Shown here piece after piece: positions 19,020 to 52,097 of a DNA stretch of 64,000 nucleotides. The position numbers were made by a program, and so were the translations under genes. Below the pieces are notes generated by a model. It saw nothing but the letters and a program-made list of their open reading frames with translations, had not been told where the DNA came from and made no database searches. The first letter of the stretch is position 1, and the number at the start of each line of letters is the position of its first letter. This DNA is from Acarospora socialis (taxonomy: Eukaryota > Ascomycota > Lecanoromycetes > Acarosporales > Acarosporaceae), in the NCBI GenBank assembly GCA_025617375.2, contig JAMYGW020000012.1, positions 1,054,001-1,118,000 of the forward strand, given 5' to 3'.

Positions 19020-19254
19020 TTTGTTCTTTTATCGTCCGCGGTGATATTGTCGCTGTTGTCGCCGGATTTGAATTTCGAGAATTAGAGTGTGAGCTCGAAC
19101 CCTACCACAGTCCTTGTCGCTAAGCGAGGTGCTAGCGTCCACCACATCAAATGGTATTCGCATCTTTAGTTACAGACGAACAACGACAGTCAACGGTACA
19201 CGACCAAGGGCGCTTCAACACTGCGACATCTGATCGCGGAACGGAATCACAATC
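19020..19254. promoter_or_regulatory. Bidirectional promoter of RPL21 and RPS9
   Basis: The 235 bp between the two start codons must drive both genes. An AACCCTA element at 19098-19104 matches the telobox-like motif known in promoters of ribosomal protein genes of filamentous ascomycetes. CT-rich tracts stand close to both starts. Confidence 0.6.
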
Positions 19255-20132
19255 ATGGCGCCGTAAGTAGAGCTTGGGTTTTCATTGCTAGCTGGGCCTG
19301 CTCTAACATCTGCCACAGCCGTTCATACTCCAAGACCTACAAGGTCCCTCGTCGCCGTAAGTCTCCACACCGTAACACGGACATCTAGAAATTACTGATC
19401 CGAAGAATAGCATTCGAGTCGGCTCGTTTGTTAGTATTTCCCGGCCACTGAGCATGAGCTTGCCTCTGCTTATGTCGATGAACCTCCAACTTATTCTTCC
19501 TTAGGGACTCCGAGTTGAAAATTGTCGGTGAATACGGCCTCCGCAACAAGCGTGAGGTGTGGCGTGTGCTACTCACCCTCTCCAAGATTCGTCGTGCTGC
19601 TCGGTATGGCCCTAGATCCACTCTCGATTCCGAGGAAGCGCTGCTGATCGGTATCGATAGTCAACTTCTTACCCTCGACGAGAAGGACCCCAAGCGTCTC
19701 TTCGAAGGCAATGCATTGATTCGCCGTCTCGTCCGTGTCGGTGTGCTTGACGAATCTCGCATGAAGCTCGATTACGTGTTGGCTCTCAAGGTGGAAGATT
19801 TCTTGGAACGCCGTCTACAAACCTGTGTCTACAAGCTTGGCCTGGCCAAGAGCATCCATCATGCGCGAGTTCTCATTAAACAGAGGCATATCCGGTATGT
19901 GAACATCAAAAACGGCGGATAAGTTCGTATAAGGCTAACGAGACTATGATACAGTGTTGGAAAGCAGATCGTCAATGTTCCCTCTTTCGTGGTCCGCTTA
20001 GATTCGCAGAAGCACATCGACTTCGCGCTCACTTCACCGTTTGGTGGTGGGCGCCCCGGTCGTGTTAGGAGGAAGAAGGCTAGGGCTGCGGAGAAGAAGG
20101 ACGACGAAGGCGGCGAGGATGAGGAGGAGTAG
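19255..20132 (+). CDS. RPS9: 40S ribosomal protein S9 (uS4)
   Basis: The first exon is only 8 nt (19255-19262, ATGGCGCC), a pattern common in fungal ribosomal protein genes. The spliced protein begins [20 protein letters not shown] and continues [20 protein letters not shown]. The S4 RNA-binding domain follows: [20 protein letters not shown], then [26 protein letters not shown], with an intron of about 45 nt at the slash. The tail is basic then acidic ([21 protein letters not shown]). Length is about 190 residues, as in other fungi. uS4 is an early-binding protein of the small subunit body and helps decoding fidelity. Identity is certain from near-complete conservation. Confidence 0.96.
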
Positions 20133-29400: not shown

Positions 29401-31663
29401 TCATGATCCAGATATCCTGACCGGCTATGAAGTTCATGGCGGGTCTTGGGGCTATATGATAGAGCGGGCCAGGTTCAAATACGATTACAACCTTTGCGAT
29501 GAATTCTCGCGCATGAAATCGCAATCACATGGCCGGTTTGGCAAAGACAATGACAAGTGGGGATTCAATCACACATCGACCATTCGAGTAACAGGGCGAC
29601 ATATGATCAATATCTGGCGTGCGATGCGGGGCGAGCTTAACCTCCTACAATATACCCTAGAGAACGTCGTTTTCCACTTATTACACCGACGAATACCACA
29701 TTATCCATACCGAGACCTCACAGCTTGGTATAACAGCGGCAAACCGCGAGATCTTGCAAGGGTCATTGACTATTATGTCTCGAAGGTGCAATTGAACCTG
29801 CAAATCTTGGAGCAGAATGAGCTGATTCCTCGTACGAGCGAGCAAGCTCGACTACTTGGTGTAGACTTCTTTTCTGTCTTCTCTCGGGGTTCACAGTTCA
29901 AGGTCGAATCCTTAATGTTCAGGATCGCGAAGCCCGAGAACTTTGTCTTGGTCTCGCCGAGCAGGAAGCAAGTGGGGCAGCAAAATGCGTTAGAGTGCCT
30001 ACCCCTTGTCATGGAACCTCAAAGCGCATTCTACAATAGCCCATTGCTGGTCTTGGATTTTCAGTCGTTGTATCCTAGTGTGATGATCGCATACAATTAC
30101 TGCTATTCTACATTCCTGGGCAGAGTGGTGAGCTGGAGAGGTCAGAATAAGATGGGTTTCACGGATTTCAAGAGGGAGCCCCGGCTACTAGAGCTGTTCA
30201 AAGACCAGATCAACATTGCGCCGAACGGTATGATGTACGTTAGGCCCGAGCTTCGCAAGTCTCTCCTTGCAAAAATGCTGGGCGAGATCCTCGAAACTAG
30301 GGTCATGGTCAAAAGCGGCATGAAAGTAGACAAGGATGACAAGACGCTTCAAAGGCTACTCAATAACAGACAGCTAGCCCTGAAACTCATCGCCAACGTC
30401 ACATACGGGTATACATCAGCATCATTCTCCGGTCGTATGCCTTGCTCAGAGATCGCCGATAGTATCGTTCAAACGGGACGTGAGACGCTGGAGAAAGCTA
30501 TTGCTTTAATCCATTCGGTCGAGAGATGGGGCGCAGAGGTTGTGTATGGAGACACAGACAGCTTGTTTGTGTACCTCAAAGGCCGTACAAGGGGGCAAGC
30601 TTTTGATATAGGGAAAGAAATCGCAGACACGGTGACGAAGATGAACCCTAAGCCGGTAAAGCTGAAGTTCGAAAAGGTATACCACCCTTGCGTACTCCTA
30701 GCGAAGAAGCGCTACGTTGGCTTCAAGTACGAAAGCATGTCCCAGAAAGAGCCGGACTTTGACGCCAAAGGCATTGAGACTGTCCGTCGCGACGGCACCC
30801 CAGCAGAACAGAAGATTGAAGAGAAGGCACTGAAGATCTTGTTCAGGACTGCCGACTTGAGTCAGGTGAAGAGATTCTTTCAGCAACAGTGTACTAAGAT
30901 TATGAAGGGCAAGGTTTCTATCCAAGATTTCTGTTTCGCCAAAGAGGTGAAGTTAGGAACGTACAGCGACAAGGGACTTCCGCCTCCAGGGGCGCTCATC
31001 AGCACCAAGCGGATGCTGGAGGATCCCCGTGCTGAGCCTCAGTATGGCGAGCGTGTGCCTTATGTGGTCATAACCGGCGCACCAGGTGCGAGGCTCATCG
31101 ACCGTTGTGTGGCACCAGAGGTGCTGTTACAGAACGATCAGAACGAGCTCGACGCCGAATACTATATCTCGAAGAACTTGATCCCACCACTGGAACGCAT
31201 CTTTAATCTTGTGGGTGCCAATGTACGGCAGTGGTACGACGAGATGCCCAAACTTCAACGCATTCGTCGTATCGAGAGTGCTATGCTCATGGGCGGCAAG
31301 GACGAAATCGTGTCGAAGAAAACCTTAGAGTCTTACATGAAATCCTCTTCATGTCTAGTATGCCGAGACAAACTCGAGGCAGAGCTCCCAATCTGCAGCA
31401 AATGCCTTGAACGTGCCGATACCTCTCTACTTGCCCTGCGTTCACGCCTAGCCAAGGCGGAGAAGAAGGCTGTGCATCTGGAGAAAGTGTGTCGATCGTG
31501 TGCGGGTCTAGCTTGGGGTGAGCCGGTCAAGTGCGATAGCAAAGATTGTCCCGTTTTCTACACGAGGTCGAGACATATGGCCAGCTTGGGAAGCACAAAG
31601 GCGTTGATAGAACCTGTCATAGGGGTGCTGCAGGCGGAAGACAGGAATGCATTTGAATGGTGA
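26403..31663 (+). CDS. REV3: DNA polymerase zeta catalytic subunit REV3
   Basis: Two exons (26403-26637 and 26685-31663) join in phase to 1,737 residues. REV3 is the family B polymerase for translesion synthesis and most damage-induced mutagenesis. The N-terminal domain (VRLNCVDHYQAVRTELDPQ, HGAFPYLYVEY) is followed by a long divergent linker. The exonuclease-like domain starts near residue 890 (MSIMSLEVHVNTRGG). Polymerase motifs: LDFQSLYPSVMIAYNYCYST (motif A, about 1202), LKLIANVTYGYTSASFSGRM (motif B, about 1312) and VVYGDTDSLFV (motif C, about 1366). At the C-terminus are CysA (CLVCRDKLEAELPICSKC) and CysB (CRSC...CDSKDCPVFY), the latter the iron-sulfur site that binds Pol31/Rev7 partners. 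It looks intact and full length. Confidence 0.97.
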
Positions 31664-32043: not shown

Positions 32044-34877
32044 ATGGGCACTTTCGGGGAGTTTTTGATCATCTACTTCATAGGCGGGCTCACCTTACTC
32101 CCTCTAATAATATCTGTCATCCTTCTACACGCATATGTCACCTTTCCTAGACGATCCACCGCTACCGGCGTTCCGGCAACCCCGGGAGATGCCCTTCAAA
32201 GACCCGGCGATGACGACAACTCACTCAGGTCGGGTACAGCAGCCCTTGCGGACAAATTCCAGCGTGGTCGAGAGCCAGACGTTGCCGCGGGCTACTTCGC
32301 GGTATGCAGGGAGTTCGTACCAGGCGGTATCAATGGCAAACCACCGGAGCGTACGACACCTGCGGGCGCAGTGGTAGCGGCGGAGAGTCCAAGTGTATAC
32401 CAGAGCATGTACAGGAGTATCTTTGACCGGAAACAAGGGCCTAGCCTCGATAGTGGAAAGGGGAATGGGAAAAATGTCAAGAAAGCAAGGAATGTGTTCT
32501 TTGTAGTTCTGAGGTATGGACAATCAAGTCTAGTCCTCACGAACGGAACTTACGAACCTACAGACATGGTCATTTGATGCTCTATGATGATGCGGAGCAA
32601 CTCGAGGTACGGCATGTCATCTCCTTGGCCCATCATGATGTCAGTGTCTGCGCGGGTGGACAGCCGATACCCGAAGGGGAGGTTTGGATCAAACGGAATG
32701 CGTTATGTCTTACGAGGAAGCGGAACGTCGGGGACATCACCTCAACATCGAAGCCATTCTATCTGTTCTCCGACAACTGTTCGGACAAGGAAGATTTCTA
32801 TTTCGCTCTCCTTCAGAACCAGGAGCAGGTCGCCGGAGCTCCTGACAGTCCGCCCAGACCATTGCAATTTGACGTCAAGCACATCATCAAACTAGTGCAA
32901 CAATTGCACTCTTCAGAAGAACATTTGCAAACACGGTGGGTCAATGGGTTGATTGGGAGACTGTTCTTAGCAATCTATAAGACACCTGAGATAGAGGAAT
33001 TGATTCGTAAGAAGATTACAAAGAAGATTTCTCGTGTCAAGAAGCCAGCCTTTCTCTCGGATATTGTGATACAGAAGATTGACTTAGGAGAAGGGCCGCC
33101 TTATATCACCAATCCTCGACTCAAAGACCTCACAGTTGATGGCGATTGTTGTTGCGAGGCTGACTTCAAGTATCACGGCAACTTTCGACTCGAAGTCGCC
33201 GCAACGGCGCGCATCGAACTTGGCTCGAGATTCAAGGCTCGAGAAGTTAACCTTGTTCTAGCTGTAGTGGTCAAAAAGCTCGAAGGCCGTGCTCTTGTCC
33301 GATTCAAACCACCTCCGAGCAATCGAATATGGGTCTCCTTCGAAACGATGCCAGAAATGGACATGACTATCGAGCCTATCGTAAGCTCTAGGCAGATCAC
33401 CTACAATATCATTCTTCGAGCTATCGAGAGCAGGATAAGGGAGGTCATTGCAGAGACGGTAGTACTTCCACATTGGGATGATTGTCCGTTTACAGACACC
33501 ACATATCAGCGTTTCCGTGGCGGTATCTGGGCGGATGACAGTACTGGAACGAGCGCTCTTGACCGGCTTCCAATCAGCACTGAAGCAGAAGAACCGGATG
33601 AGCTCGAAACGGGGTCAAATCCGAGCATAGAACATTTGAAAATGTTGAAAACAAGAGATGATAGAAGTATGAGCATGCCAGCCTTGGTTGATCCGCCCGC
33701 ACTAGCCATGAAAGCTAGGAAAGGAGTCGTGTCCAGTGCCACACCAGCAGACCAGACGGATGGCGCATCTTCTACGGGCGTACAGAAGCGACCGCAGCCG
33801 CCGAAAGCGATGCGGTCACATTCCTTCGCCGCCGCTGCAAGCCCAGTTGTAACTACGGATACAGCAAACGTTGACTCGTTGAAGGCCGAGGGCAAGTTTA
33901 GCGAGCAAAGGGACGCCGCCAGCTCTATGGTGGCAATCTCTAATCGTTCGCAACCTACGTCTCCCACAGATACACCTGTTGGATCCCCGTCTCGGCCATC
34001 TACATTGGCGGAGAATAGCAGAAGTGGAAGCTCCTCGTCGAACTCTCTAACTGGCGGGAATAGCATACAGGAGACGGTGGTAACTTCTTCGTTAGGGAGC
34101 TCTAGTCAGGCTTCACTTCCGGGAACGCCGAGTAGTACAGGTACCACCTCAACCACATCTGGCTTCAGCAACGACCAGAAGCGGTCGGCTCTGCATTCAG
34201 TTGCTCGAACGCTAGCACCTTCGGATAAAAGATCGTCCATACCATCATTTGGGAATGCAACAGCAGCCGCAAAGAAATGGGGCTGGGGGGTGCTTAATCG
34301 TAATGCGGAACAGAAACATACCCCGGAAGGTGCGGCAGGCGCCGAGAGAGCAGGTACTCCAGAACATCCAATCGGACGGGGGCGGCCACTTCCACCTCCT
34401 GGAACGCCTCTTCCTCTGCCAGAGCGACCAAGGTCCAAAGCTTCTCCTATCAACGTACCCAAGCGAAAGCCTCTTCCCCCGCCAAAGCTACCACAGCGGC
34501 GCCAGGATATATCCAGCAGACCCGTCCCAGCGCCACCTCTTCCAGCCAGGCAGACAGAAGATGCAGTCTCTGGTGCCGTTGCTGGGGATGACGGGCTTTT
34601 AGTCGTCGAAGCTCCGCCTGACTCCGAGCCTACCAGTCCGCTCGAGGATGGCGGAGACGAGATTATCGGGTCTCTAGAAGCTGAGGGAGACGTCGATAAC
34701 AGACCCAACTCGGAACCCATTAGCACACCGGTAGCACAGCCAGACGAGGAGCACTCAACGCCTCATGTGTCCAGCTCGTTTGAGGACGATGACGGGACAC
34801 ATGGAAGCTGGTCTTCGGCCCAGGAGGAGGAAGCAAGATCGAAAAGCGTCTGGATACATGAGAACGAACACTCCTAG
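32044..34877 (+). CDS. NVJ2/TEX2-like lipid-transfer protein (PH + SMP domains)
   Basis: Two exons (32044-32513, 32564-34877) join in phase to 927 residues. A membrane helix lies at about residues 6-31 (FLIIYFIGGLTLLPLIISVILL). Next is a PH-like domain spanning the splice junction (VFFVVLRHGHLMLYDDAEQL, then ALCLTRKRN and KPFYLFSDNCSDKEDFYFAL). The SMP domain follows: HTRW-like LQTRWVNGLIGRLFLAI, then KISRVKKPAFLSDIVIQKID, LGEGPPYITNPRLKDLTVDG and FKYHGNFRLEVAATARIELG. The last 450 residues are disordered, P/S-rich, with SH3-type proline stretches. Yeast Nvj2 tethers ER to vacuole or Golgi and moves ceramide; the same anchor-PH-SMP order supports that role. A PH-domain gene beside MAT is reported in some Dothideomycetes. 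Confidence 0.88.
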
Positions 34878-35546
34878 GGCGTGGTGGGTATTTGGAACGC
34901 GGGTTTGGCGAATTTGCTTCACACTGGGCATTTGGTTGTTTCATGGCGGTCATGGGTACGGAGTTTGAAAGCGATGGAGCATAGGGGATTCGCTGCAGGA
35001 GGGCTGGGTTAGGGATATTGGCCGGTGTGCTGCCATCACCAAAGTGATCTATAGAGCTCCCCTACTTTGCGCAGGACTTGGAGGGGAGTTAGATCCCATA
35101 CCTACTTAAGACTGTATTTGCTGAGAGGACGTCCAAGTTTTGGTGAATGGAACCTGTCGCAATGAATAGGCTGCCATGTAGCTGCTCTCTGTGAATATCT
35201 TCCCTCTGAAAGTATAAGACAAGATATTTCAACGCAAGTGAGACGTTAGCTATGAGGATACGCCAAGCCTCACGCCTACGCGGCCGCCATCGAAGCGTGA
35301 CGTTGCCGACAGCTCGGACTAGGATTATTTGTTCGGCAGAGCTACCTTACCTACTCGTCAACTAATATGGGCAACACAGCTTAATGCGCCTCGTCCTCAC
35401 AGTCACAGGACTCTCTACTCCTATACCCTCTCATACTCGTTACCTCTCGATCTTCCTTTCACTGTGTATTGCTTTAAGTTGTGTTGGGGTTTGCCTGAGT
35501 TGACGAGATGTCGTATGGGTATGGCGGCACAACGCGCAACGTGGAT
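34878..35546. other. Intergenic gap before SLA2
   Basis: Contains the 3' end of the NVJ2-like gene and the SLA2 promoter and leader, which is C/T-rich just before the start. No gene or repeat is supported. Confidence 0.5.
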
Positions 35547-38500
35547 ATGAGCAGGTGAGTGCTCGTTACTAGTTCAGCTAGATATTATTTTGTCCATACT
35601 TGTGGCTCACGGCTTCGTCAGATCGGAGACAGACCTGGCAATCAACATACGGAAAGCAACAAGTATCGGTACGATTTCGCTCTGCCCCTCGCTCACTAGA
35701 TCAAGCAAGCTGATGAGAATGTGATTTCAGAGGAATCTGCGCCAAAACGTACAAAGACCTCCGAATCTGGGCTTGTGGGGCGAAGGAGACTTACAAGGCG
35801 CAGGAAAACATGTCCGGAGCTGCATCGTCTATACCTGGGACCACAAGTCCTCACAATCCTTCTGGGCTGGCATGAAAGTGTGAGCTTCCTCCTAGCCTCT
35901 GAGAACAGCCCTGGCTTCATCGTTCTTCTCTTCTTCATGGCCATGCCACTTACACTTCTGGTCAAGGCAACCCATTCTCGCCGACGAAGTTCAGACGTTC
36001 AAGGCTTTAATCACCATCCATAAGGTCTTACAGGAGGGACATCCGATCACTGTCAAGGAGGCACAAGCCAATGTCAACTGGTTGGAAAGCTTAACAAGAG
36101 GGGTCTCAGGGGACGGTCTCCGCGGTATGCTTCTTCGTACCTAACGCTGGGATGGATTTTGCACGGAATAGGGTTCGTGGAGAGCCTTCGATGATGGGAA
36201 AGCTGATAAATTAGAGCAGGTTATGGACCACTACTGCGAGAATACGTTTACTTTCTCTTAGCCAAACTTGCGTTCCATCGACAACATCCAGAGTTCAATG
36301 GTCCTCCCTCTTCCGTTCAGTACGGTGTCTAGTTGGGCTAACTAGTCGCAAAGGCCTTTTCGAGTATGAGGAATATATCAGTTTGAAATCTATCAACGAT
36401 CCGAATGAAGGGTGAGCAGTACCTCGTCAACTTGTTGCATTGTTTCCTATCTAACTAAAGAACAGATATGAGACCATATCTGATCTAATGATCTTGCAAG
36501 ATCAGATTGATTCTTTCCAGAAACTCATCTTCTCAAATTTCAGAACCGGTGCAAATAATGAGTGCCGAATATCGGCGTTGGTGCCGCTGGTGCAGGAAAG
36601 CTACGGCATCTACAAGTTCATAACCAGCATGCTTCGAGCTATGCATACGAGTAGGTGATCTGAGTGTTTCTGGAAGGGTCTGTTATTGACCCAAGTGAAG
36701 CTACCGGAGACGATGACGCTCTTGAGCCGTTACGAGGACGCTACGACGCTCAACACTATCGACTTGTCAAGTTTTACTACGAATGCTCTAACCTAAGATA
36801 TCTGACGAGTTTGATTACAGTACCAAAGCTACCTCAGGACCCGCCAAATCTACTTTCGGAAGACGAAGATCGACCGGCATTACCACGGCGTCCAACGAAA
36901 GAAGTGGAAAAACAGCCCACCCCTACCCCTGCGCCTGCGCCTAGAACCGTGCCTGCGGCTGATCCTGAGCCAATCAACGAATTCTGGAAGAACGAGCAGC
37001 GGCGGCAACAAGATGAGTTCGAAGCGGAGCAGCGACGTCTGCAAGAGCAATGGGAGCAACAACAGTATCAGCAGCAACTTGCACAACAGCAAGCGCAGCG
37101 AGACTTTGAAGAGCAGCAGCGTCTGCAAGCAGAGCAGCAAAGACTGGCACAAGAACAGTTGATGCGAGACCAGTATCAGCAACAGACTCAGGGTCGTATG
37201 GCGGAGCTTGAACGGGAGAATCTGAACGCTCGTGCACAGTACGAACGGGATCAGCTGATGTTGGAACAATATGATAGGCGGATGAAGGACTTAGAGACGC
37301 AACTCAACCAGCTGAACTCCAACTTCAACCAGCAAAACTCTTCGAAAGACGATCAGATTCGAGCTCTTCAGGAACAGGTTAATACGTGGCGGAGCAAGTA
37401 CGAAGCGCTAGCGAAGCTCTACTCTCAGTTGCGGCACGAGCACCTCGAGCTCCTGCAGAAATTCAAGAGCGTCCAACTTAAGGCTGCTTCCGCCCAGGAA
37501 GCAATTGACAAACGGGAAAAGCTGGAGCGGGAGATCAAGACGAAGAACCTGGAGCTGGCGGATATGATTCGCGAGAGGGATCGGGCTCTTCACGAGAAAG
37601 ATAGGGTAACAGGTGGAAACAGGGAGGAAGTTGAGAAGCTCAAGCGCGAGTTGAGGTTTGCACTGGAGAAGGCCGATAATGCTGAGCGTGCGAAAGGTTC
37701 GGAGCTTTCGTCAATGCTGGCCAAGTATAACCGGGAGATGGCTGATCTCGAAGAGAGCCTTCGGGTATGTACAATTGTTGCCGTGGGCTTGAAGATGCTT
37801 ACTAACCCGAGTAGAATAAGACTCGTGCTCTGGAAGACGTTCGCTCGAAGTATGGAGAGCGCGATGGCGATCTTGAACGTGCCCTCCGTGAAAAGGAAGA
37901 AGAACTGGAGATCTACAAGTCCGGAATGGATCAGACGTTACTGGAGCTCAACGAGCTGAAGATGGTGAACGGCACTGCTGGTTATCCGCTTTCCGGTGGG
38001 CTAACATTTCGTAGACTGGAGGCGACACCGACAAAGCGCTGGACGAACAAATCGATCAAGTACTCCTGAGCAACATCCAGAAGATCAACGACATAATAGA
38101 CTCGGTTCTGCAGAGCGCCGTTCAGCGAGTAGACGATGCTCTCTACGAACTGGACTCTTCTATGCAAGCAGGAAACCAGAACGCTTCGCCTGCCTACGTG
38201 TTGTCACAGATCGAGAAAGCCTCTTCCAGCGCGACGGAGTTCTCCACAGCTTTCAACAACTTTATCGCAGATGGCCCCAATAGTACACATGCGGAGATTA
38301 TCCGTACTGTCAATGTGTTTTCTGGATCCATTGCGGATGTCCTCAGCAACACCAAGGGTCTTACACGGTTTGCGACAGACGACCGAAAGGCCGACCAGCT
38401 CATCAACGCTGCTCGACAGTCTGCCCAGTCTACAGTCAACTTCTTCCGGGGCTTACAGTCCTTCCGCCTTGAAGGCTTGGAGGCAACACAAAAGACAGAT

Positions 38501-39386
38501 GTAGTCATCAACAACAATCACGAGGTGCTAATGAACCTACAGAAGCTTTCAAAACTAGCGGACGCCTTTGCACCAAAGAGCGGCAAGATCACCAGTGCCA
38601 GTGGCGATATTGGCGATCTCGTCGACCGCGAGTTGACGAACGCCGCCAACGCGATTGACGCCGCAGTGGAGCGGCTAAACAAGCTCAAAAAGAAGCCACG
38701 AGACGGGTATTCGACGTACGAACTGAAAATCCACGACTCCATCCTCGAGGCCGCCATCGCCGTAACGAACGCCATCGCCCAGCTCATCCGAGCCGCGACC
38801 GCCTCCCAGCAAGAGATCGTCAAAGAAGGCCGCGGCAGTTCTTCGCGGACAGCATTCTACAAACGCAACAACCGGTGGACGGAAGGCCTAATCAGTGCGG
38901 CCAAGGCCGTCGCAACATCAACCAACACCCTGATCGAGACGGCCGACGGCGTCATCAGCGGCCGCAACAGCCCGGAGCAGCTCATCGTGGCCAGCAACGA
39001 CGTCGCCGCCTCGACGGCACAGCTGGTGGCTGCCAGCAGGGTTAAGGCGACGCTGATGAGCAAGACGCAGGATCGTCTGGAGGGCGCGAGCAAGGCTGTC
39101 ACGGAGGCGTGCAGAAGTTTGGTCAGGCAGGTGCAGGACATCATCAGCCAGCGGAACCGGGACGAGAACGAGGTCGTGGATTATGCGAAGTTGAGCGGGC
39201 ACGAGTTCAAGATTCGGGAAATGGAGCAACAGGTTTGTCCTACATCGCACTGGCTAGAGCTTGGCCACTGCACACGGGTTCGCTAACGGAACTGTGTATT
39301 AGGTCGAGATCTTGCAGCTGGAGAATAACCTGGCGCAGGCTAGGCAGAGGCTCGGCGAGATGCGGAAGGTGTCTTATCAGGAATGA
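35547..39386 (+). CDS. SLA2: Endocytic actin-coupling protein SLA2/END4 (HIP1R family)
   Basis: SLA2 links clathrin-coated membrane to actin. The gene is fragmented at its 5' end: the first exon is 8 nt (ATGAGCAG), and several short exons rebuild the ANTH domain (SETDLAINIRKATSIEESAP, KRKHVRSCIVYTWDHKSSQ, FWAGMKVQPILADEVQTFKA, GYGPLLREYVYFLLAKLAFH). The junction giving MLRAMHTTTGDDDALEPLRG matches the family. A Q-rich coiled coil follows (about residues 340-620), then the talin-like THATCH/I-LWEQ actin-binding domain (YSTYELKIHDSILEAAIAVT, NRWTEGLISAAKAVATSTN) and the tail VEILQLENNLAQARQRLGEM. Total is about 1,000 residues. It is the classic left flank of the Pezizomycotina MAT locus, as found here. 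Confidence 0.95.
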
Positions 39387-39761
39387 TCGAGTCTGGACGT
39401 CTCTTGTGTATGGGTGTGCTTGCGGTCTCCGTTACGGCTCTGGGTTCTCGTACGGGTATACTCCCTTAGCGCGCATGGGGTTCTAGTTGCCGTGCTTCAT
39501 GTACCCTGGTAGTGGTTGTTCAAAGAGTGTGGCCATCGATATGTACACAGACGACACTCCGTTTCTGCAGCTTAGTCTCTCCGCTTGCTATACATTAGTG
39601 GCGGCGTTGCGGGGACTCCGAGCAACTGTAACCCTTCCCACGCTCGCAAGATTGAAAGCCCGCGCGATTGTTTTCTACCCATAGCTATTCCCGGAGTGCC
39701 AGAATGCGGACGTTGGTCAATTCGCATTCGAGTAGCATACGACAATTGTTCCATCAATCCA
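39387..39761. other. Intergenic gap between SLA2 and the decayed gene
   Basis: A 375-bp stretch at the convergent ends of two genes. No repeat or gene is seen. Confidence 0.45.
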
Positions 39762-40341
39762 CTACGGAAGTTCCAAAACGGTACCGATGAATAGCTTCAA
39801 TCGCCGACGTCTCGTATCCACATTCCCATCCATTGCCAGTCCGCACGCCACCAGCAGAGCCGCGATCTCAGCGTCTATCGTATGTTAATGCGCTGTAAGC
39901 TGCTAAGATTGAACGAATGGAATCTCACGGCTAAGTCGTGACAATGCTCCAAGATGGAGGGGAAAGCCGTTAACAGGTTGGTTCTGCGGGTTGCGGAGCG
40001 TTTCCAGCGCGGTGTCTTGATGCCGGATCGGAGAGTTCGCCATACGGGCGATTTGGTTCGAACTCCTGTAATATAGTGTTAGTTGAGGTTTGGGACAAGA
40101 GCAAAAATTGCTGACTTCTGCGTATCGAAAATCCTGATTCCTCAATCTGGTGTTCAATGCTGCGAACTTGTCGGGCATAGCCTGCCGAAGGCCACCCTAC
40201 TGATTGGTGGGGTCGGTGCGAATACCAGCAATCTGAGCTTGCAACACCTGTCCATTGTTGAATGCCGGTGTCTGCGGTACACGCGATAATTCCTCCGCGG
40301 CAGCTGTCAGGCTTTGAGACAGGCGGGCATAATCGGGCTGT
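39762..40341 (-). pseudogene. Decayed copy of a small uncharacterised fungal protein gene
   Basis: Reading the - strand gives four linked pieces: YARLSQSLTAAAEELSRVPQ with QIAGIRTDPTNQ, then MPDKFAALNTRLRNQDFRYA, then NQIARMANSPIRHQDTALET with NQPVNGFPLHLGALSRLS, then, after an intron, EIAALLVACGLAMDGNVDTR ending LKLFIGTVLELP. I recall this block order (coiled start, NS-x-x-R-x-D-x-x-LEPL, GFP, ALGLP-like end) from a family of about 200-residue fungal proteins without known function. A TAG stands between pieces 1 and 2 (near 40184), no splice pair joins pieces 2 and 3 in phase, and no start ATG is evident. I infer decay, but a misjudged exon structure is possible. Confidence 0.5.
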
Positions 40342-40838
40342 GCTGCTTTTCTAATTTATACGAAGTGAGCTTTGTGTTATGCTCTGGTCAAGTGTAAACA
40401 AAGTAATAAGTTGAATTTATACGAAGAAGCTTCGCTTGGTAACCAAGAGACTTATTTCCTTATTCGAGTGGAAGGGATGAGGAAGGTATGAGGGAGGGTA
40501 TGGAGGAAGGGAATTGGGGATGAGGGCTTAGGTGGTAGACGCTCTAAGCGCTGCCGCTGCCGGCAGGTGGCGGGCGTGGGGTTTGGACTGGGCAGGTAAG
40601 GTTCATTGCCGTTGCCGCCGCCGCCGGTGGGTGGGGTGGGGGAGAAAAGTTTGTTGCGACCTCATCTCCCAGCTCTCAACGCAACAACTGATACTGGAAC
40701 CTCATAATATTTCTTGAGTTCTATCTACGTTCGGTACCAAACTTATTATAAGAACTGGAGCCTGTTCCCTACCCAACAGAATGCCTATTCCCAACTCTCG
40801 AGTCGCCAAGTTCGTTCGACACAAAGCTCTGCCTAACC
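40342..40838. other. Intergenic gap downstream of MAT1-1-1
   Basis: Contains a direct repeat of ATTTATACGAAG (near 40355 and again near 40416) and a G/A-rich run near 40470-40515. No gene is supported. The left idiomorph border is likely to lie here or within the neighbouring decayed gene. Confidence 0.4.
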
Positions 40839-41994
40839 TCAGCTGAACATATCTTCGTTCAGGTAATCGCTCATGTCGAATGGGTTGAAAGGATCGCCCA
40901 TGAACGGATCGTAATGGAGATCGGTCGAATTGTCCGGGTCGAATTGACTATTGAATGGGAATTCATCCCCAGATTCCAACAGCACTTGCCCTAGGATGTT
41001 GTTGCCAAGCTGAGCAGCGTGGTCCACAACCTCTGCCTTCTTGGTATCGTTGTCCAAGTCCTTTAGCATACTCTCAACCAACTCCTTCTCAAAGTCTCTC
41101 TCGGCGGCTTCCTCTCCTCCAACAGTTGAAATCTGCGAAGTATCAGGATGAACGATAGATTCCTGAGTCGGTCCATCTTCTCTTGGTACCACAAGTTCGT
41201 CAGAAGGGGACTCCGTTGGTTGAGCGGTTGTTGCCATAGTCATGGTGGATCCATCCCTCACAGCTACCAGGTTCCCATCCCCAGCAACATATCCACAAGC
41301 GTAGCAGTGCTGAACAATATCTTCAACTGAGAGGTTGGTGGTAAGAAGACCTTGCTTAATGGTAGTGGCAGTGGACCCGCGAGTGAGAACAGTTTCATTG
41401 TCTTCATTGGTCGAAAACTTCCAGCCTAACATCTTGAAGTACTCAGTGGGAGGAAGTACACCAATGTGTGGAGCAGCGATGGCAAGGAAAGAGTCAAGCG
41501 GCGCATTCTCTTTTCCCTTGTCGTCGCGGATGATAGAGTACGCTTTGGATAAGATAGTCCATTTGGCTTTGAAGGGGTCGGCGTGCCACAAGCCGGTGAG
41601 GAAGGTCGAAATGTCCTTCTGCTGAAGGCTCGTAAACATCGGAGAGTAATAGCCTAACATTGTCAGTTTAGTTACTTAAACAGAGGACTCTTGCCTTACT
41701 TCGAAAAGCCATCCAGGAGTTCAACGGCCTTGTCGCAGCTTTCGTTGCATCTGCCTTAGCTCTTTTTGCCTTCTTTCTCATTTGATTCTCGTTGGGTCCA
41801 GATCGCTTCTTGCCGTTCACGTTGGCGCTGCTGTCCGCTGAGATGGATGGCGCGGGCGCGGATTGGGCCGGTATGACCGGCTGAAGCGGCTGAGGTTGTA
41901 CAGCTGCAACCATAGCAGTGATCTGCTCTGGAGTGTGCGTTGCTAGGAGCTGTTGGAAAGCAGGTGGAACCGGAGACAACGCCGAAGTCGCCAT
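40839..41994 (-). CDS. MAT1-1-1: Mating-type protein MAT1-1-1 (alpha-box transcription factor)
   Basis: Two exons (41994-41700 and 41653-40839) join in phase to 369 residues. The alpha-box domain runs from about residue 90: RPLNSWMAFRSYYSPMFTSL, then QQKDISTFLTGLWHADPFKA, then KWTILSKAYSIIRDDKG and FLAIAAPHIGVLPPTEYFKM. The intron splits the alpha box after WMAFR, the position conserved across Pezizomycotina. The N-terminus is P/A/Q-rich, preceded by a basic KKRSGPNENQMRKKAKRAK stretch; the C-terminus is acidic. The protein sets MAT1-1 cell identity and activates pheromone and receptor genes. An in-frame ATG exists at 42171, but the conserved-looking start MATSALSPVPPAFQQLL is preferred. It lies between SLA2 and APN2. 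Confidence 0.96.
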
Positions 41995-42411
41995 GTCGAA
42001 ATCGAAATCGAGGTTGTGTTGTTGAAGGCGACAGGGAGAAATCACGGACGAGAGCTGTCTATCTTCCAGAGATAGTACAAGAGTAATTGAAAGGATTTGA
42101 TATGTTGAGAGAAGGAGGAGCGAAAAGAGTGCAAATGAAAAGGTGGCGTGGGAGGTGAGGTGGGAGGTCATAGTGAAGGCATCTTGTGGTGTTATTGCAA
42201 CAAAAGCAGGAGGTTGGTCGTTCAGTTTTGCGCATCAACACAAAGGAAAACTCGCTATACTTCCCCTTATCTACGCACGGTACGTTGAGACGGCAGTTCG
42301 TTTAAAAGATTTCTACGCCGCAAGCCTCTGAAGCAAGGGTTGCCTAAAATTACACATTCTCCGCCACGCCTTTCTCCCCACTTATAAGCTGACATCGTAG
42401 AAAGTCATGTT
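41995..42411. promoter_or_regulatory. MAT1-1-1 upstream region
   Basis: This 417-bp stretch separates MAT1-1-1 from the 3' end of the next gene on the same strand, and so should hold the MAT1-1-1 promoter. An open frame in phase with MAT1-1-1 reaches back to an ATG at 42171 and would encode a hydrophobic extension. No known binding site was identified. Confidence 0.4.
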
Positions 42412-43640
42412 CTACTGTCCTCCCAAACGACTCTTCGGGATCATCTTCTGAATGACAATAGTAGGCAGCATCCGTCCGGTGATTCTAGGTGCGTGAGCAA
42501 CCTCATGGTCAAATCCATCTGTGACGATTAGCTTGGGTTCGTGTCTACCAGCTATTTTGGACCTTACCCATTGTTTGACCCAAGCGCTCCAGCTTGGTCT
42601 TGCTACCAGATCGTTCCGGATATCTCCTGACTGTCTATCACAATCGTCAACAGTATTCCGGAAATTGCAGGGAGTCACTTACAGTGAAGAATGGGTTCGG
42701 AGCCACAAAATACTGCTTGTTAACTCAGCGCCGCACTTCTGTAAGACCTTTGCTAATGGCTCACCTGACGTACACGGGTAATGTTGCCATCCAAGCCAAT
42801 CCCAGCATGGTTGTCTGTGAGCTGTACACCCTGCGAATATCAGCCTCGAGCTTCTGGTTGCTTGCCGACAAAGCCTCACCGGTTGAGTAATTGGAGCTCC
42901 GTCATGTTTCTATTGCAACTCGTCAGTAAGTCGCCCCGCTTCTCCTGAGTTGTGGTAATGGAGTACGAACATCTTCGATAGTCTTGATGATATCTTTGCA
43001 TTCCTTGGACCAACCACACAAGATTCTAACACCCGCCCAAGGCACTATCTGAGCACTCATGTTTCGACTTGGAGCACGTATGCCAGTGCCGCTGCCTGGC
43101 GCGTTCCGGCCCAAGAACTGCTGCCAAGGCTTGCGGCCTTTGGCGAAATGAGGGCGGGAGCGTTTCTGATACCTCCTTGCCAGGACTTGGGCAACGACTT
43201 TCTGGCGGTGAATGCGACGCTTCCAAGCTGCAATGATACGCATGCACTGCCTTGAGAGATCTCCAATCGATCCGAAGAATCTATGTGCTGAGGTCTTGTC
43301 AACGAACAGCTCCGGTGAGTGTACCAGCCGATCGCATTCTTCGTAAATCTTCTGCAAGCAGAGCTTGACAGCTGATTTCGACAGCTTTTTGTAGTTCAAC
43401 TCATACTCGTCCCGGATAGCAGAAAGGTCGGAGACAAGTACTTCGAGAAAGTCTTGGCTACAGGTGCGCATGGGCTCGTGAGGATTGTCTGAGAACCTTA
43501 GTGGAGCTTAGACGCAGGACACAACCCAGACACTCACCTTTGGTGACACCTCGATCATACTCTTGGTAAGTGACAGCCATTTTCACTCCACTACCCGCCT
43601 GCAGACCGAGCTTGTTGAACTTTTCTTTAACCAGACTCAT
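42412..43640 (-). CDS. Idiomorph gene of unknown function next to MAT1-1-1
   Basis: Six exons (43640-43538, 43488-42971, 42909-42880, 42830-42765, 42738-42683, 42634-42412), all with GT-AG ends, join in phase to 331 residues. The start MSLVKEKFNKLGLQ is the first ATG after an in-frame region lacking one. The N-terminal half is helical and charged (SDLSAIRDEYELNYKKLSK, CLQKIYEECDRLVHSPELF), then very basic (AAWKRRIHRQKVVAQVLARR, YQKRSRPHFAKGRKPWQQF). The C-terminus includes WSAWVKQWVRSKIAGRHEPK and ends MLPTIVIQKMIPKSRLGGQ. No HMG box, alpha box or other known domain is visible. Its place suggests a secondary MAT1-1 gene (MAT1-1-4 and MAT1-1-8 are known from other orders), but I cannot match it to either. 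Confidence 0.68.
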
Positions 43641-45686
43641 TCTCGCTTTATTTGAGTATGTTCCTTGTCTGGCTCGCGTTCGATGAAGTTGTTGTAGAAG
43701 AATCACATTGCCTGGAGTGTTGCGTGGATGCTGAGGTGGCAATGTTGCTTGGGAGATATCTCTACAACAAGTGTGGGTTATTATTTCCAAGGGCTAACAC
43801 CGCGCAATTGCTAGAGCAACAATAACAATGATATAGCCTTTAGCGTTTACACCCCCTATTGTCAGCTATACACTCTAATCAACCAACCACCATATTAAAT
43901 TGACAACTTTCGATGCATTAACTAATTGTATCGCATTCACTTTTGCTCTTAAGATTGGTCGTTGAGTCACTATAATATCGGCTCCTTGGATCTCAATCTA
44001 TAGTTCAACTAGAAGGACACCTGGCCCTACTCGCAAACGCCGAGCTCGAGCGCATGCCCGCGGGCTCGACCTGCCCCGAAGCAAGCCCCTTTTGAGTTCG
44101 CTATACTTGGTCACCTGCAAGCTTCAACAGATCCCCGACTCCAGTCTCACGGCACGAATGGTTTGGCTTTTTGTATTCCTGTTTTCGAGGCAGGCGGTTG
44201 TTCTACTATACGTCTGTAACCCGAAGCGTTTTCCCACCTGACCCAAATCCCCGTGGACGGCAGCGCTGGTTTTCTTCTCTGGAGATCTCAACCTCGAGGT
44301 GGTATGGTTGGAAGGGATGAAACGCAAATGGAGATGGAGGTGGTCCTGTATCCAGACTTGGCAGATAGTTGTCAATAACGGGATTGAATCATGTAGCTAG
44401 CTTAGTAGCCTAGGGAGGAGAGCAGGAAGGGGGAAATAGAAATGAATCGGTTAATTGGAAAGGGGGATAGTGTTGTCATTGCGAAGGGTGTCGACCTGTG
44501 ACTCGACAATTGATGTACGATACCAATCCAAGAATAATAACACTTCTTCTCCGATTCGTGGGAGTAGGAACCGTAACACTACGGACTATAAACCCCAACA
44601 ACATCCCTAACCAACTCCGCCTCCGTCTAACACTTCCCCTTTCATCCCGTCCTGGAACCATCATCAGCCTCTCTCCTTGTCCGCCTCTTCCTCCTCTCTA
44701 TTGGACCAGTACCCCGAGCTGCTCGAACACCCAAATAGAGCAGAGACGAGAAGATACTGCAAGTGATCCGACAATACCTACCCTCAAAACTACCCATATC
44801 AAGATGCGAACCAGCACACCTTGGCCCCGCTCAAGCGCTTAGGAACACCCACAGCTTATGCCGAGATATCTGTACACAGAGATTTGACTCTTTTTCCTTA
44901 TGCCGAGAACGCGGGTGAGAGCCGTGGAAGATGTGGAGTGTATAGATGTGGAGTGTATAGATGTGGAGTGTATAGATGTGGAGTGTATAGATGTGGAGTG
45001 TATAGATGTGGAGTGTATAGATGTGGAGTGTATAGATGTGGAGTGTATAGATGTGGAGTGTATAGATGTGGAGTGTATAGATGTGGAGTGTATAGATGTG
45101 GAGTGTATAGATGTGGAGTGTATAGATGTGGAGTGTATAGATGTGATGTGGAGCGTGGGGATGCAGAGGGAGTTGAGAACCGGAAAGTGGGCAAGACGGG
45201 AGGTAATTCGTGGTTGCGGGGATGGGAAAAAAGGGAATGCTGTGGCCCTGCAAGGATTGCAGAGGTGCAGGCAGTCTCTGTCAGTTAATGGCAGGAGGAA
45301 GTTGCTATGGGAGAGTTGGGGGAGCGAGGGTAAGTCGTTTTCGGCTTTGCTTGTGACGACCTTGAGCTCTCTGCCCAGGCGACGGAAGCATGGCAAGCGC
45401 AATCATGACATGTCGTGTACATTGGCCGTGACAAGCATTTCGAATTGCCCTGACACGTGTGTTCCTCAGCTTTGTTGGATTGGCTCGGGTATGGTGGAAC
45501 TTGGTTGCGAGGGCAGATCGCTTGTTGCCTTGTTAAGAGGACCGCTGTGCTGCGTGACGGTAGTTGATGGGTATGAAGATGGAGTTAGAGATCGAATATT
45601 CTCGCACAAGTCTAGATCTCAGACGCTCCACGATTCTCCAAACTCCCTTGATCCCAATTTTCCCACACGTCCATTGCGGAAAACAA
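43641..45686. other. Gene-free stretch of 2 kb between the idiomorph gene and APN2
   Basis: Contains the promoter of the unknown idiomorph gene, a minisatellite at 44933-45142 and the APN2 3' end. The segment near 43800-43990 is A/T-rich. I looked for an HMG-box reading frame on both strands and found none. Long frames across the minisatellite are a result of its 15-bp period. The right idiomorph border probably lies here. Confidence 0.5.
44933..45142. repeat. Minisatellite, 14 perfect copies of a 15-bp unit
   Basis: The unit is GTGGAGTGTATAGAT, repeated 14 times without a mismatch over 210 bp, with a partly related start (GTGGAAGAT) just before and GATGTGGAGCG after. Because 15 is a multiple of 3, several frames stay open on both strands and encode simple pentapeptide runs (CGVYR, VECID, TLHIY). 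No coding role is supported. Perfect identity implies recent expansion. Confidence 0.97.
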
Positions 45687-48012
45687 CTAAGTCCCTAATC
45701 CACCCCCATTCCAATCACTACACCAGATGAACGTCTGACACCGCCACTGCGTATTCTTCTCCTTCGTCCCCGTCGGGCCGACGGGTCGCGCACACATCCA
45801 AAAAGAGCGGCCGCAGTTGAAGCCGCTTTTCTTCGTTAGCATGCTTATGCATGGTTCTTGGTGGCCTTCACAGCGGGGCGCGGCGGGTTTGGTAAAGAGC
45901 TTGGACCAGGATTCTTTGCTGATGACGGGGTCATGGACGAACTCCTGGTCTGCAACGGAGGTGGTGCGGGCAATGGTGGGTGACGAAAGGAGAGAGGGAG
46001 TTTGAGTGTCTTGTTGGGCGATATCGTAGTCGTTTGGTGCAGGGGAGTTATTGGGTGGTGGTGATGCGGGCGCTGTGCTGTTCTTGGCCTGCTTTGTTTT
46101 GAGACTAGTGCTTGCTGACTGGGATGTAGGGTGCTCTAAGATACCAAGGAATGATTGCACACCATCTCCAGAGCCAGTTCCGTCATTGGTGGACATGTTA
46201 GGTGTCTTCGGTTTGAAGAAGCCCTTTAGACTCTGCTGACCCTTTCCTGCTGATGTCCCATTTGTAGCTGTGGAGACCGATTTGGATCGTTTGAGAGGGC
46301 GGTTCGTCGATGTGTCGCCAAGGGATCGCTTTTTGTTGGTACTGTTCACAGGACTTGCTGGCGGGACAGGAGAAGCTGGGGTTGGAGAGGACTGTGATGG
46401 TAGAGTACTCGCGGGCGCCACAGAGGTAGCCACCCGTGAATTCACAGCTTCTTGTGACACGGTCGGAGGCACTTCGGACACATCTGTCAACGGCTTATTG
46501 TCACTCTGCGGTAGTATTGACGACTGGAAGCTTTGTGCGGTTGGTAGAGAAGGCTTTCGAGAAAACATATCTTTGATATTCCTTCGTCGATCGAATTCTG
46601 GGATTAATTTGCCAGACAACGGAAGCAGGTCCTTCATAGAGTATTCTCGCAATCTCTTGCCGTCTTTGAACATTCCAGCTGGGTTCATAACGTCTCGTAC
46701 GTCAACCTCTTCGCCATCAAGCAAGATCTTATCCTTCAGTGCTGCGTATACTGGGCAGTGATCGGAACCCTTGGATAGTCTTAGTCATCGCAGTTCATCC
46801 CTGCGAGGTTGTGGATCTTACCAGGAGTCCTTCCTGTATGTTGGAATCGCAGAACCAGTCCTTCATGTCCTCGCTACAAAGTACGTAGTCAATTCTAGCA
46901 CCGTAATTCCCGGGCCTAGCATTAATTTTCTGCTCCCAGCAAGTAAACATACCCTTGCGCGTGGGATGGAAGCCTCTGCAGATATCCCAAAGTACCGGCT
47001 TCTCCCTGCCTTCGTCCCTTTCCCCGAACACCTTCCCACCAACCAGCAGCTGGTTGAAGAGTCGCCGCGCGGGGGTAGAGGCATACTCTTGCCCTGACAG
47101 TCCGTTCTTTCGCATCGTTTCTTCGGCATTTGCAGTATCAAGCTCTTCTCTCGAGATGTTAAGATCGCCAGTCAAGACTACTCTTTTCCCTTGCGCTACC
47201 AAGTTCCGAATACGAGCGTCCAGCACATCAAGAAAGCCGAGCCGGAAATCATCCCTCGTATGATCTCGGTTCGCAGGACTATACACTCCGAGCAGCACGA
47301 ATGCTGGGAACTCTAGGAGAAGACATCGTCCTTCAGAGTCAAGTGTTGCTGCATCAACTGTAGAGCTGGCAAGCTGACTAGGCGAAGGGTAGCCACCTAT
47401 TTGCTGGTCCTCGGGAAGCTCGTTGTAGCTCGTCGAGGAAGCTGGCGGGCATAATGTGCCAGTAATACCCTCTTCAGCCCTGATCGGAGCGCAAACGGAT
47501 TGCCTCGTGTAGATCACGACACCCGAGTAGCCTTTGTCCATGTCAGCGACGAGACATTCACCCCCGAGGAAGCATTCCTTGCCTTTCTTATGCTTTGGCA
47601 AGCTAAAATAACAGTCCCAACCTGGGACAAGCACCATGTCATCCTGTAGATCCTTCCTCTGAATCTTTGCCTCTTGCATAACCACGATGTCCGCTTCGAG
47701 AATGTCGAACATGGCCTATTGGCCAATCAGCCTTCGGCGTCCGAGATAGCTACAAATCCAGCATACCTGGAAGGTTCTTTGGTCTCGCCATGGTTGATAG
47801 CTGAACGGGTTTCTGTAGGGTAGACAAATCAGCATGGGCCAATGCTTCAGTCAAGCTGGTGCGCTCGAAAGTATCGTGATATGAGGGATGCGGAGCACAT
47901 GTAAAAACAGCTATGACTGACCGGATGCCATTTACTGCAACGTGAACTTAGTACCTGAACCCTCCATTGGTGCAGTAGACATACCATTCCAAGTCGTTAT
48001 TCGAAGAACCAT
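45687..48012 (-). CDS. APN2: DNA lyase / AP endonuclease APN2
   Basis: Five or so exons. Three short ones rebuild the conserved start: MVLRITTWNVNGIRNPFSYQ, then PWRDQRTFQ, joining AMFDILEADIVVMQEAKIQR. The exonuclease III-type domain has the catalytic blocks VVLTGDLNISREELD (GDLN) and the late GSDHCPVYAAL, reached by a short intron near 46770-46820. After it lies a long S/T/P-rich linker with PCNA-type QQSLKGFF at about two-thirds. The C-terminal GRF zinc finger is CEGHQEPCISMLTKKSGFNC with GRSFWMCARPVGP and WRCQTFIW. It is a class II AP endonuclease with 3' repair activity in base excision repair. It stands on the classic right flank of MAT and shares a promoter region with COX13. Confidence 0.95.
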
Positions 48013-48296
48013 TGTGAAGTATTGGCTTTTCGACGCTTCATAGCTCTGTCCTGGTATTCAGCGTACTACATCCGCTCTCCTTTGACTGAGATATTGAAAT
48101 CCGTCATGCGATTCGTGATTCACCGCTAACTTCTATGTAAACCTCCCTGAGCGTCCTCGAATCGAGCATTCTAGTGGCCAGTGACATCAGCTCCAGAACC
48201 CTGCTGAGTCAGCAACGCTCCCCTCGGTAGCCGCAACAGCTAACCTCACGACCAACAGCACCAGCTCACAAACGTCAACACCGAATCACAATCACG
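48013..48296. promoter_or_regulatory. Shared promoter region of APN2 and COX13
   Basis: The 284 bp between the start codons of two divergent genes must hold both promoters. No specific element was recognised. Confidence 0.5.
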
Positions 48297-48883
48297 ATGT
48301 TCCCTCAACGCACTCTGCTTCGGGCTTCACAGCGTGCCACTCAGCAACTGCGATCTCCAGTATTGCGCTCCAACCTACAACGCCGCTTCGCCAGCACCGA
48401 AAAGCTCAGCGGTCCGGCCGACAATGCTTTCAACAGGGAGAGGCAGGCCGTGAAGCACCACGCGGCGGCAACGAGTGGTAAGTCCAGTCTTCGTCTCAGA
48501 GGACGGAGGAAAGCTTGGAAGGGTGATACGAACTGACGAACCTGTTTCTTAGACCTCTGGCGGAAGCTGTCAATCTAGTATGTCTCCGACGCATACCACG
48601 AGGTCCTCGGAAGAAGTACACACTGACCTTGTCTCAGCGTTACTATTCCCTGCCTGATAATCGCATCGGTAAATGCTTGGAATCTATGGAACGAGCATTG
48701 GGAGCACTGGGCTCACCAGGGGCCGCCGGATGAGCGTCCCGAGTACCCGTATTTGAATATCAGGACAAAAAGCTATTTCTGGGGCGACGGTGATAAGGTT
48801 AGTGAGCTCCACTACTGGTTTTGAAGAGATGAGACGATCGATACAGAAGCTGACAACGAGGTGATGTCTAGACTCTATTGTAA
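48297..48883 (+). CDS. COX13: Cytochrome c oxidase subunit 6A (COX13)
   Basis: Four exons. The first (MFPQRTLLRASQRATQQLRS...) is an R/S/Q-rich mitochondrial presequence ending near RRFASTEK. The second gives SDLWRKLSIY; the third starts VTIPCLIIASVNAWNLWNEH, the single membrane helix, then WEHWAHQGPPDERPEYPYLN and IRTKSYFWGDGDK; the last adds TLL and the stop. The YPYLNIRTKSYFWGDGDKT box is the signature of subunit VIa. The protein sits at the dimer interface of complex IV in the inner mitochondrial membrane. It is next to APN2 in head-to-head order, as in most Pezizomycotina MAT regions. Confidence 0.95.
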
Positions 48884-49441
48884 GTCAGCAGTCTCATAAC
48901 TGAACGGTTTAAGGAATGATACATCGCTTGAACGATGTATGAGCACTAGAGTCATGAAAATCAAGCTAGTGAAATGGGAGAGAGGATGGCGAGTGGATCA
49001 AGTCGAAGAGCAAGCGTACTGACGTAGATGTGTAGCTGGAATGACGAGGTCAACCACCACAAGAAGGACGAGTAAGCAAGGGAGTGAGGCTGTTGGTAGT
49101 GTCAGCAATGGTATGGGATGAGCGGTAAGGAGTAGTGTACAAAGAATGGAGGAAGGACTTGGAAGGAGATGTTGAAGAAGGCGTCTTTGCTTATTCCTTT
49201 ATAAGGTACTTCACCCAAAGTGAATGTTGCTGGTAGAAGATTGTGACTAGCAATACGACCAATAACCCACTCCTAAAGATTTGATATGATTCAATACAGT
49301 GAAGCAGGAAAGTGTCACACTTCTCTGATTCTCAGAGCCTCCGTATGCAATACAGACCCCGTAGCAAGAACGAGAGAGGTGCTGAAACACCCAGCACCAT
49401 CTTACCATTTATAAGGTCAATCTCCATGATACATGTAATCC
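48884..49441. other. Intergenic gap between COX13 and APC5
   Basis: Two convergent genes flank it. No gene or repeat is supported; the sequence is A/G-rich on the + strand near 49060-49180. Confidence 0.45.
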
Positions 49442-52097
49442 CTATAGCTTATCACTAGCCGCTTCCCGCTTAATATCGAGATACTTCGCCGCATAATCAT
49501 TCGCAAGCACCAAATCCCCGACCAAATGCATAATCGTCGCCTTCTTCGCCATCATCTCACACTGCCCCTGAATATCCTCGATGCGTGAAAACTCCGCGAA
49601 CGCGGCATCAATGGATTCCAGCGCTTTGGTCAAATGCTCCTTGCGCTTCGGCGTCTCAGGGTTCGCCTGACCCGCCTGACCCATCTGCGCGTCAACGAGC
49701 AGGGAGTACGTCCTGGCCGCGAGATCGCAATCCTCGCACTCGAGCACTTGCGGCATGATGCTATCTAGCATCTTCCCGGCCGCTGCGAATTCCTTCAGGC
49801 TGATCAGGACGTTACTTACGGCCCCAACGGCATCCCACAATGCCGGCAGCAGCTTGGCTCGATGGGCGATGGTCGCGGCTCGCACGGCGATGGAGAAGCC
49901 CTTCTCTGGTCGGCCGCATTTGTCGAGGATACGCGCTTTTAGCGTCAAGAGTTTGACGCGTTGGTAGATGTCGGATTTCTCTTCGGCAAGCTTGGTGTGG
50001 TAGTGTTCAAGTGTGCTAAGAGCCACCGAGTAGTTCTGTTGGCGGATGAGGTGCTCTAGGTGGAGCAGCGAGATGGAGTAGGCGACTTCGCTGTCTGGTG
50101 CTGGGGTTGCTCTGAGCTGTGCGAGAAAGTGGCCTGCTGCGAGAAGATTGCCCCTTCGCATACATGAGCTGAAATTCGGGCGGTGCTATGGTACAGTTGG
50201 CCTACCTGTGAAGCGCTCTTCGGAGCTTTAACAGCCCATAACAGATCGTCCAGTACTGGTGAAACTTCAGAATGCGCAGTGTCTCCGGATCGACATCCTC
50301 GAGCGTAGACATAGCCTCGTCGTAGCGGCCTCTGCGCGCCAGCTTGACCGGCCGGAGTCAGCACTTTATTCGCACAATGAAAAGCTGGGTACTCTTACCA
50401 GTTCTGAACTCCGACAGATGCATCTTAGACCATCTTCAATTGGGGATCGGCCGGCGTAACATTGAATAAAAACTTCGCCATAGGACCAAGCTAGCTGTGT
50501 GACGCCTGAGAAGATATCGGCAGTCAGGCCTGGTAGCTTATCACGCGGCGAGGAAAGTATTTACCCAGTCGTCCAAAGATGGATGATTGCAGAGCCATTT
50601 GGGCACCTATCATGGCCGTAAGACCTTTCGTGATATTTAGATGAGTCGCTTTGACGACATTCTCAAACGCTAGGGCTACGCTGTCCCCCTAGATGACCCT
50701 CACTAGTCAGCAGCTATATCTCCAACCCTTAACTTCCGAAGCGCTCACATTTGTGAGTAGCAACTTCGCTTCACTGAGTAACGTAGTGCTGAGAAGACTC
50801 CACATTCCGGATTCCTTTGCTTTCGCTCTCAGGAAAGCCAAAGCCTCCCTCTCTGTACCAAGCATGCCGTTTTTGCCGACTTCGCCCATTTCCCCGGGAT
50901 GCGCTTTACCGAAGTGGTATAGCCAGCTCAGACTGAAATTCAGACATCCAATGTCCTTGTTCTCTCGGGCGGTAGAGATAGTCTCTTGCATTGCCGTTAC
51001 TGCTTCGCTGTAGCAACCAAAGTCGGCTTGAAGGATCGCGAGGTTGAGGAGGGCATACTGGTAGAAGGTACGGTCGCGATTGTGCATGGTATAGTCGAAG
51101 TAACGATGGAGGTTGTCAAAGGATGAAGGGTAGTCTCCAGCTTTCCAAGCATCTAAGAATCTAGTAAAAATCAGGCCTAATCCTAACACGCTTCGAAATG
51201 TTCGGTATAAAGCCAGCAGAACTGCTGCGTACTTTACATAGTGAGACAGACTAGGCACTGTCACGCATGTTTGAACCATATTGCGGAACTGCTCCTTCAT
51301 TTCGTCTGATAGCCTGTTCCCCATCTCTACCACAAATGTTAATATAAGTCATCCACAAGGATCCATTCCGCCAACATACTCTGCATTCCATCTACCTGGA
51401 ATTCAAGCAGACGGTCAACATCGTCCGTACTGACCGAACCTTCCTCCCCGCCGCTCTCTTGAAGATCTCCATATAGTACCTCTGTCAATTCGTCTTGCCA
51501 CCCTAGACCATTTGCATGGAGGTTAATATCAAAGCTAGTTTTGCCGGCAGCAGCATTCCTCTTCTTCCACATAGGTAGTGTGGGTTCTCGGTATGCGATG
51601 TAACTCTTCCACAAGATCATCGTATCATGAAACTGTAGCCGTGTAAATTCGAGCTGGGCTCTTCGCACAAAGACTCCCAGCGGAGAGGTTCTGGAGAGAA
51701 GCATCCGGTCGACGGCAGGAGTGGCCCCGTCCTCGGCATCCTTTTGTTGCTCCTCGCGAGTTTTAACTAACAGAAATGACAAATTGTCAAAGAACATATG
51801 CAGCGCATCGAAGGAACTGATCTCCCACAACCTCTTCAGCAAGAGATCCCAAACAGTTCGACCAGGAATCCCAGAGGCGTGGGTGATCGTAGCATTCTGA
51901 AAGTCATCAATTGAGATGATGACGTTCCGATCTATTTGCCTCGATCCGGTCTGAGCACTAGACGCATTCAATGGCAAGATATGAGACACGATAAAGGACA
52001 GTATAGGTATGGTGGACGCAGTAGCAACAACAGAGTCGGTATAGAGCGATATTAATGCCAGAAGGCCAACTTTGGAAGGCGTTAAGTAACGCGACAT
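49442..52097 (-). CDS. APC5: Anaphase-promoting complex subunit 5 (APC5)
   Basis: This is a scaffold subunit of the APC/C ubiquitin ligase, made of TPR-like helical repeats. The start MSRYLTPSKVGLLALISLYT is family-typical. Exon 1 carries the N-terminal domain (SPLGVFVRRAQLEFTRLQFH, ILWKSYIAYREPTLP). A short intron near 51325-51380 leads to MGNRLSDEMKEQFRNMVQT; another leads to RFLDAWKAGDYPSSFDNLHR and YFDYTMHNRDRTFYQYALLN, the best-conserved APC5 block. Helical TPR-type repeats follow to the C-terminus (LDSIMPQVLECEDCDLAART). Several further introns lie between 50150 and 50750; their exact ends were not all resolved. It is the third gene of the standard APN2-COX13-APC5 flank. Confidence 0.92.

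Follow-up and report, generated by a model that had tools for sequence, protein, structure and literature searches.

The analysed stretch of DNA (hereafter the window; 64000 bases, 51.6% GC) carries fungal genes throughout the examined part, and the genes around its mating-type (MAT) interval follow each other in the order PolB-type polymerase, an ORF with PH and PF10296 domains, SLA2, the MAT interval, APN2, COX13, APC5, SAICAR synthetase and CIA30. The polymerase includes a POL3_N domain and lies at 26534-31660, left of the PH/PF10296 ORF, which occupies 32454-34874 and precedes SLA2. Ribosomal S4/S9 and L21e genes stand farther left of the MAT flank. The L21e ORF (minus strand) and the S4/S9 ORF (plus strand) are near each other at 18329-19919, and 40SS9 is named among the MAT-locus genes sought in Phyllosticta in the available text of PMC6859488. 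A flavin monooxygenase-like ORF of 598 aa is found at 8060-9853.

The left flank is SLA2, encoding a cytoskeleton assembly protein (35508..39386, plus strand, several introns), with Pfam matches to ANTH (47.3 bits) and I/LWEQ (172.4 bits). The spliced-ORF script recovered only the 3' exons from 37162, and the ATG and 5' exons were read by eye. The C-terminal part of SLA2 had no relative in the scanned prokaryote and viral contigs. The right flank begins with the DNA lyase gene APN2 (45687..48012, minus strand; Exo_endo_phos, 60.0 bits), for which the script gave the last exon only and the start and 5' exons were likewise read by eye. COX13 follows with five exons (48297..49075, plus strand; COX6A, 26.2 bits at a cut-off of 25) in a hand model made by eye, from which the mis-modelled script version differs. 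APC5 comes next (49442..52097, minus strand; ANAPC5, 133.0 bits); the script gave only part of it and its ends were read by eye. An earlier note on this DNA had set the borders of the region at 35547 and 48883. These need correction to the SLA2 start at 35508 and the COX13 end at 49075, with 48883 falling just beyond the fourth COX13 exon.

The alpha-box gene and the mating system

MAT1-1-1 is intact and encodes an alpha-box transcription factor of 369 aa at 40839..41994 on the minus strand (exons 41994-41700 and 41653-40839). The product matches a single Pfam family, PF04769, with 154.8 bits (E 2.1e-45; cut-off 28.1). An intron of 46 nt (41654..41699, minus strand) lies within the alpha box and splits a serine codon, at an exact position that we take to be typical of the family. 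A spliced-ORF search over 1.3 kb around the gene returned the 369 aa, a length reached by none of 200 dinucleotide shuffles (maximum 219). The Pfam score and the intron bear out the earlier note, which had described an intron-containing alpha-box gene. Pezizomycotina are described as having a motif Y-[LMIF]-x3-G-[WL] downstream of the alpha box (PMC2999568, available part), and in MAT1-1-1 it reads YFKMLGW (residue 170). By itself this pattern is not specific, with 6 matches in the six frames of the window, and therefore supports the identity of MAT1-1-1 without proving it.

SLA2 and APN2 stand on opposite sides of the MAT interval. Flanks of the SLA2/APN2 type are reported, in the portions of the papers at hand, for Eurotiomycetes (PMC3091305) and Lecanoromycetes (PMC6414310). 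The best overall explanation, held with high confidence, is that the region is the MAT1-1 (alpha) mating-type locus of a filamentous ascomycete (Pezizomycotina), and nothing was found that contradicts the MAT1-1 assignment. The earlier reading of a MAT1-1 haplotype in an SLA2/APN2-COX13 frame agrees with the Pfam matches to the alpha box and the flanks. Judging from its family, the alpha-box (MATalpha_HMG) factor would be needed for mating-type-specific expression of pheromone and receptor, and its activity would make a haploid strain mate as one sex.

An HMG-box gene was not found between the SLA2 and APN2 flanks, with Pfam on 30 of 52 ORFs and with a motif scan in six frames, in line with the same statement in the earlier note. 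The 52 ORFs were all stop-to-stop frames, measured 55 aa or more and overlapped the SLA2-APN2 interval. The 22 frames outside the scan lay over the SLA2 end (1), MAT1-1-1 (10), the second gene described below (7) and a minisatellite (4), and the products of MAT1-1-1 and of the second gene were themselves scanned separately against Pfam. The 30 scanned ORFs gave two weak matches below cut-off (DUF2277 and Birna_RdRp_palm), neither of them an HMG box. For the motif scan we assumed a loose HMG-like N-terminal motif. Its only match in the six frames of the whole window was the alpha box itself.

We infer that the species is most likely heterothallic, with MAT1-2 carried by other strains. Homothallism with MAT1-2-1 elsewhere in the genome, unlinked to the MAT1-1 locus, appears unlikely, even though MAT1-1 and MAT1-2 lie apart in Neofusicoccum (PMC8905617) and Phyllosticta citrichinaensis carries both loci on different scaffolds (PMC6859488), as far as the available text of both papers goes. 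Against such an arrangement speak the HMG-box result within the window and the single core MAT gene between SLA2 and APN2 in 39 of 39 Lecanoromycete genomes (PMC6414310, available portion). The GC profile across the locus shows no clear step. The minisatellite and the short direct and inverted repeats revealed no idiomorph border and no flip repeat.

A probable second gene and a probable gene remnant

Between MAT1-1-1 and APN2 we modelled by hand a probable second gene at 42412..43640 on the minus strand, with about five exons and about 324 aa. The exons are 43640-43538, 43488-42971, 42874-42770, 42712-42683 and 42630-42412, with borders uncertain past exon 2. This is probably a real gene that escaped the earlier reader. 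The earlier note had called the region complete. The frame stands, but the gene inventory omitted the probable second gene and the remnant described below, and completeness needs amending because the former sits between MAT1-1-1 and APN2.

The case for a gene comes mainly from a shuffle control. Under strict splice rules the strand of the second gene yields a spliced ORF of 243 aa, which is not wholly within the hand model because the model frames diverge after exon 2; none of 200 shuffles gave one as long, and the opposite strand reached just 68 aa. The large exon 43488-42971 is common to the hand and loose models, and the strict model holds its main part; past exon 2 both script models, strict and loose, take borders and frames that differ from those of the hand model. 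Applied to the intergenic segment 43650-44920, this control found 86 aa on one strand and 109 aa on the other, lengths that 59 and 31 of 200 shuffles reached, respectively. For COX13 it found 133 aa, and 10 of 200 shuffles did as well; as COX13 is a real gene, the control has little power where genes are short. The hand model ends intron 2 at an unusual GAG acceptor; one APN2 intron, as read by eye, likewise seems to close with AAG.

These findings have to be weighed against chance open frames in intergenic DNA, which would account for the disagreement of the splice models past exon 2, the weak codon signal and the lack of both a Pfam model at or above cut-off and a significant relative in the PDB (best E 0.84). 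Codon usage does not clearly separate the second-gene exons from background, with log-odds of low power, as intergenic best-of-six values overlap the exon values, including those of MAT1-1-1 at similar piece length. The spliced ORF that no shuffle matched and the short ORF on the opposite strand make chance frames quite improbable, and we retain the second gene as probable. It had no relative in the scanned viral contigs. Two Pfam matches below cut-off, CSN7a_helixI (15.6 bits, cut-off 26) and Mvb12 (12.5 bits, cut-off 25), were set aside as chance. AlphaFold gave a poor model for exon 2 alone, with a mean pLDDT of 56.8, a pTM of 0.40 and helices only.

The second gene adjoins MAT1-1-1 inside the SLA2-APN2 interval, the position expected of an auxiliary MAT gene, with published positions varying. 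From this position we lean towards the auxiliary gene named MAT1-1-4 or MAT1-1-7 elsewhere. The available text on Letharia sets the auxiliary gene against unrelated genes between MAT1-1-1 and SLA2 (PMC10512270). A new Lecanoromycete gene is sited between MAT1-1 and SLA2 in the available part of PMC6414310, which thus puts the gene on the SLA2 side and conflicts with PMC10512270 on position. In dermatophytes, a gene described as similar to MAT1-1-4 has locus tags between APN2 and the HMG gene (PMC3091305, available part), so that such a gene need not be specific to MAT1-1. The second gene might accordingly be present in both mating types and lie outside the MAT1-1 idiomorph, a reading we entertain tentatively, given that the dermatophyte MAT1-1-4-like gene can accompany MAT1-2 (same source). 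The accessible text on E. dermatitidis points the other way, describing MAT1-1-4 together with MAT1-1-1 for the MAT1-1 strain and a MAT1-2 gene for the MAT1-2 strain (PMC10484061).

Between SLA2 and MAT1-1-1 lies what is probably a decayed gene, read from translated pieces, at 39762..40349 on the minus strand. Of three protein-like exon pieces (40349-40116, 40064-39929 and 39874-39762), the first has an in-frame stop, the frames clash where it meets the second, and a start codon was not found by eye. The best spliced ORF on this strand is 92 aa long and was matched by 75 of 200 shuffles, which leaves no intact gene there. The codon signal is within background and no Pfam match rose above cut-off. 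The translated pieces presumably resemble a small fungal protein family. Decay at MAT loci has precedents in an ORF of Aureobasidium subglaciale (PMC4227064) and in lorf, a pseudogene at the MAT locus of one Letharia (PMC10512270, available part). We consider it doubtful, if conceivable, that the remnant is an auxiliary gene decaying on the SLA2 side while the one on the APN2 side stays live, with the SLA2 side marking gene loss in a non-recombining part of the idiomorph.

A perfect minisatellite lies between the second gene and APN2 at 44929..45145, with a 15-bp unit in 14.5 copies at 100% match. This perfection suggests a recent expansion, and the array might serve as a strain marker.

Relation to known MAT loci

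The locus is a MAT1-1 locus of ordinary type and one more member of an already known kind. It resembles the MAT1-1 loci of Eurotiomycetes and Lecanoromycetes (Exophiala, Letharia and dermatophytes), as far as the sources at hand describe them, in its SLA2 and APN2 flanks, the single MAT1-1-1 and a further gene adjoining. It differs from them in the remnant between SLA2 and MAT1-1-1, and the papers, in their available parts, vary on the position of the further gene. With the Diplodia type of Botryosphaeriaceae it shares a PH/DUF2404 membrane-protein gene on one side and APN2, CoxVIa, APC5 and CIA30 on the other (PMC8905617, available portion). Here, however, the PH gene and MAT1-1-1 have SLA2 between them, while the available text of that paper does not mention SLA2. 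To the extent of these sources, two frames meet in this gene order: SLA2-APN2, as in Eurotiomycetes and Lecanoromycetes, and PH/DUF2404 with APN2-CoxVIa-APC5-CIA30, as in Botryosphaeriaceae. Gene order alone points to no single class of fungus.

Further likenesses are partial. In the accessible part of PMC3744574, MAT1-1 of Hortaea werneckii is flanked by APN2 and, opposite it, by a PF10296 membrane-protein gene, and there is an alpha-domain intron, as here, but its MAT1-1-1 has two introns, one idiomorph gene is anticipated and SLA2 goes without mention. Teratosphaeria MAT1-1 likewise has a second gene adjoining MAT1-1-1, there named MAT1-1-10 and comparable to ours in position (PMC7513301); in contrast to the flanks here, SLA2 and APN2 are absent from the available text. 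The surroundings of MAT in Aspergillus niger also list SAICAR synthetase and CIA30, and over 12 kb separate SLA2 from the MAT gene there (PMC8454179, available portion).

The locus alone settles no open question. For this fungus it provides a full MAT1-1 reference that could serve to design PCR primers for mating type. Its gene order has SLA2 together with a PH/DUF2404 gene as reported in Botryosphaeriaceae, and the locus adds a likely case of a poorly understood auxiliary MAT gene.
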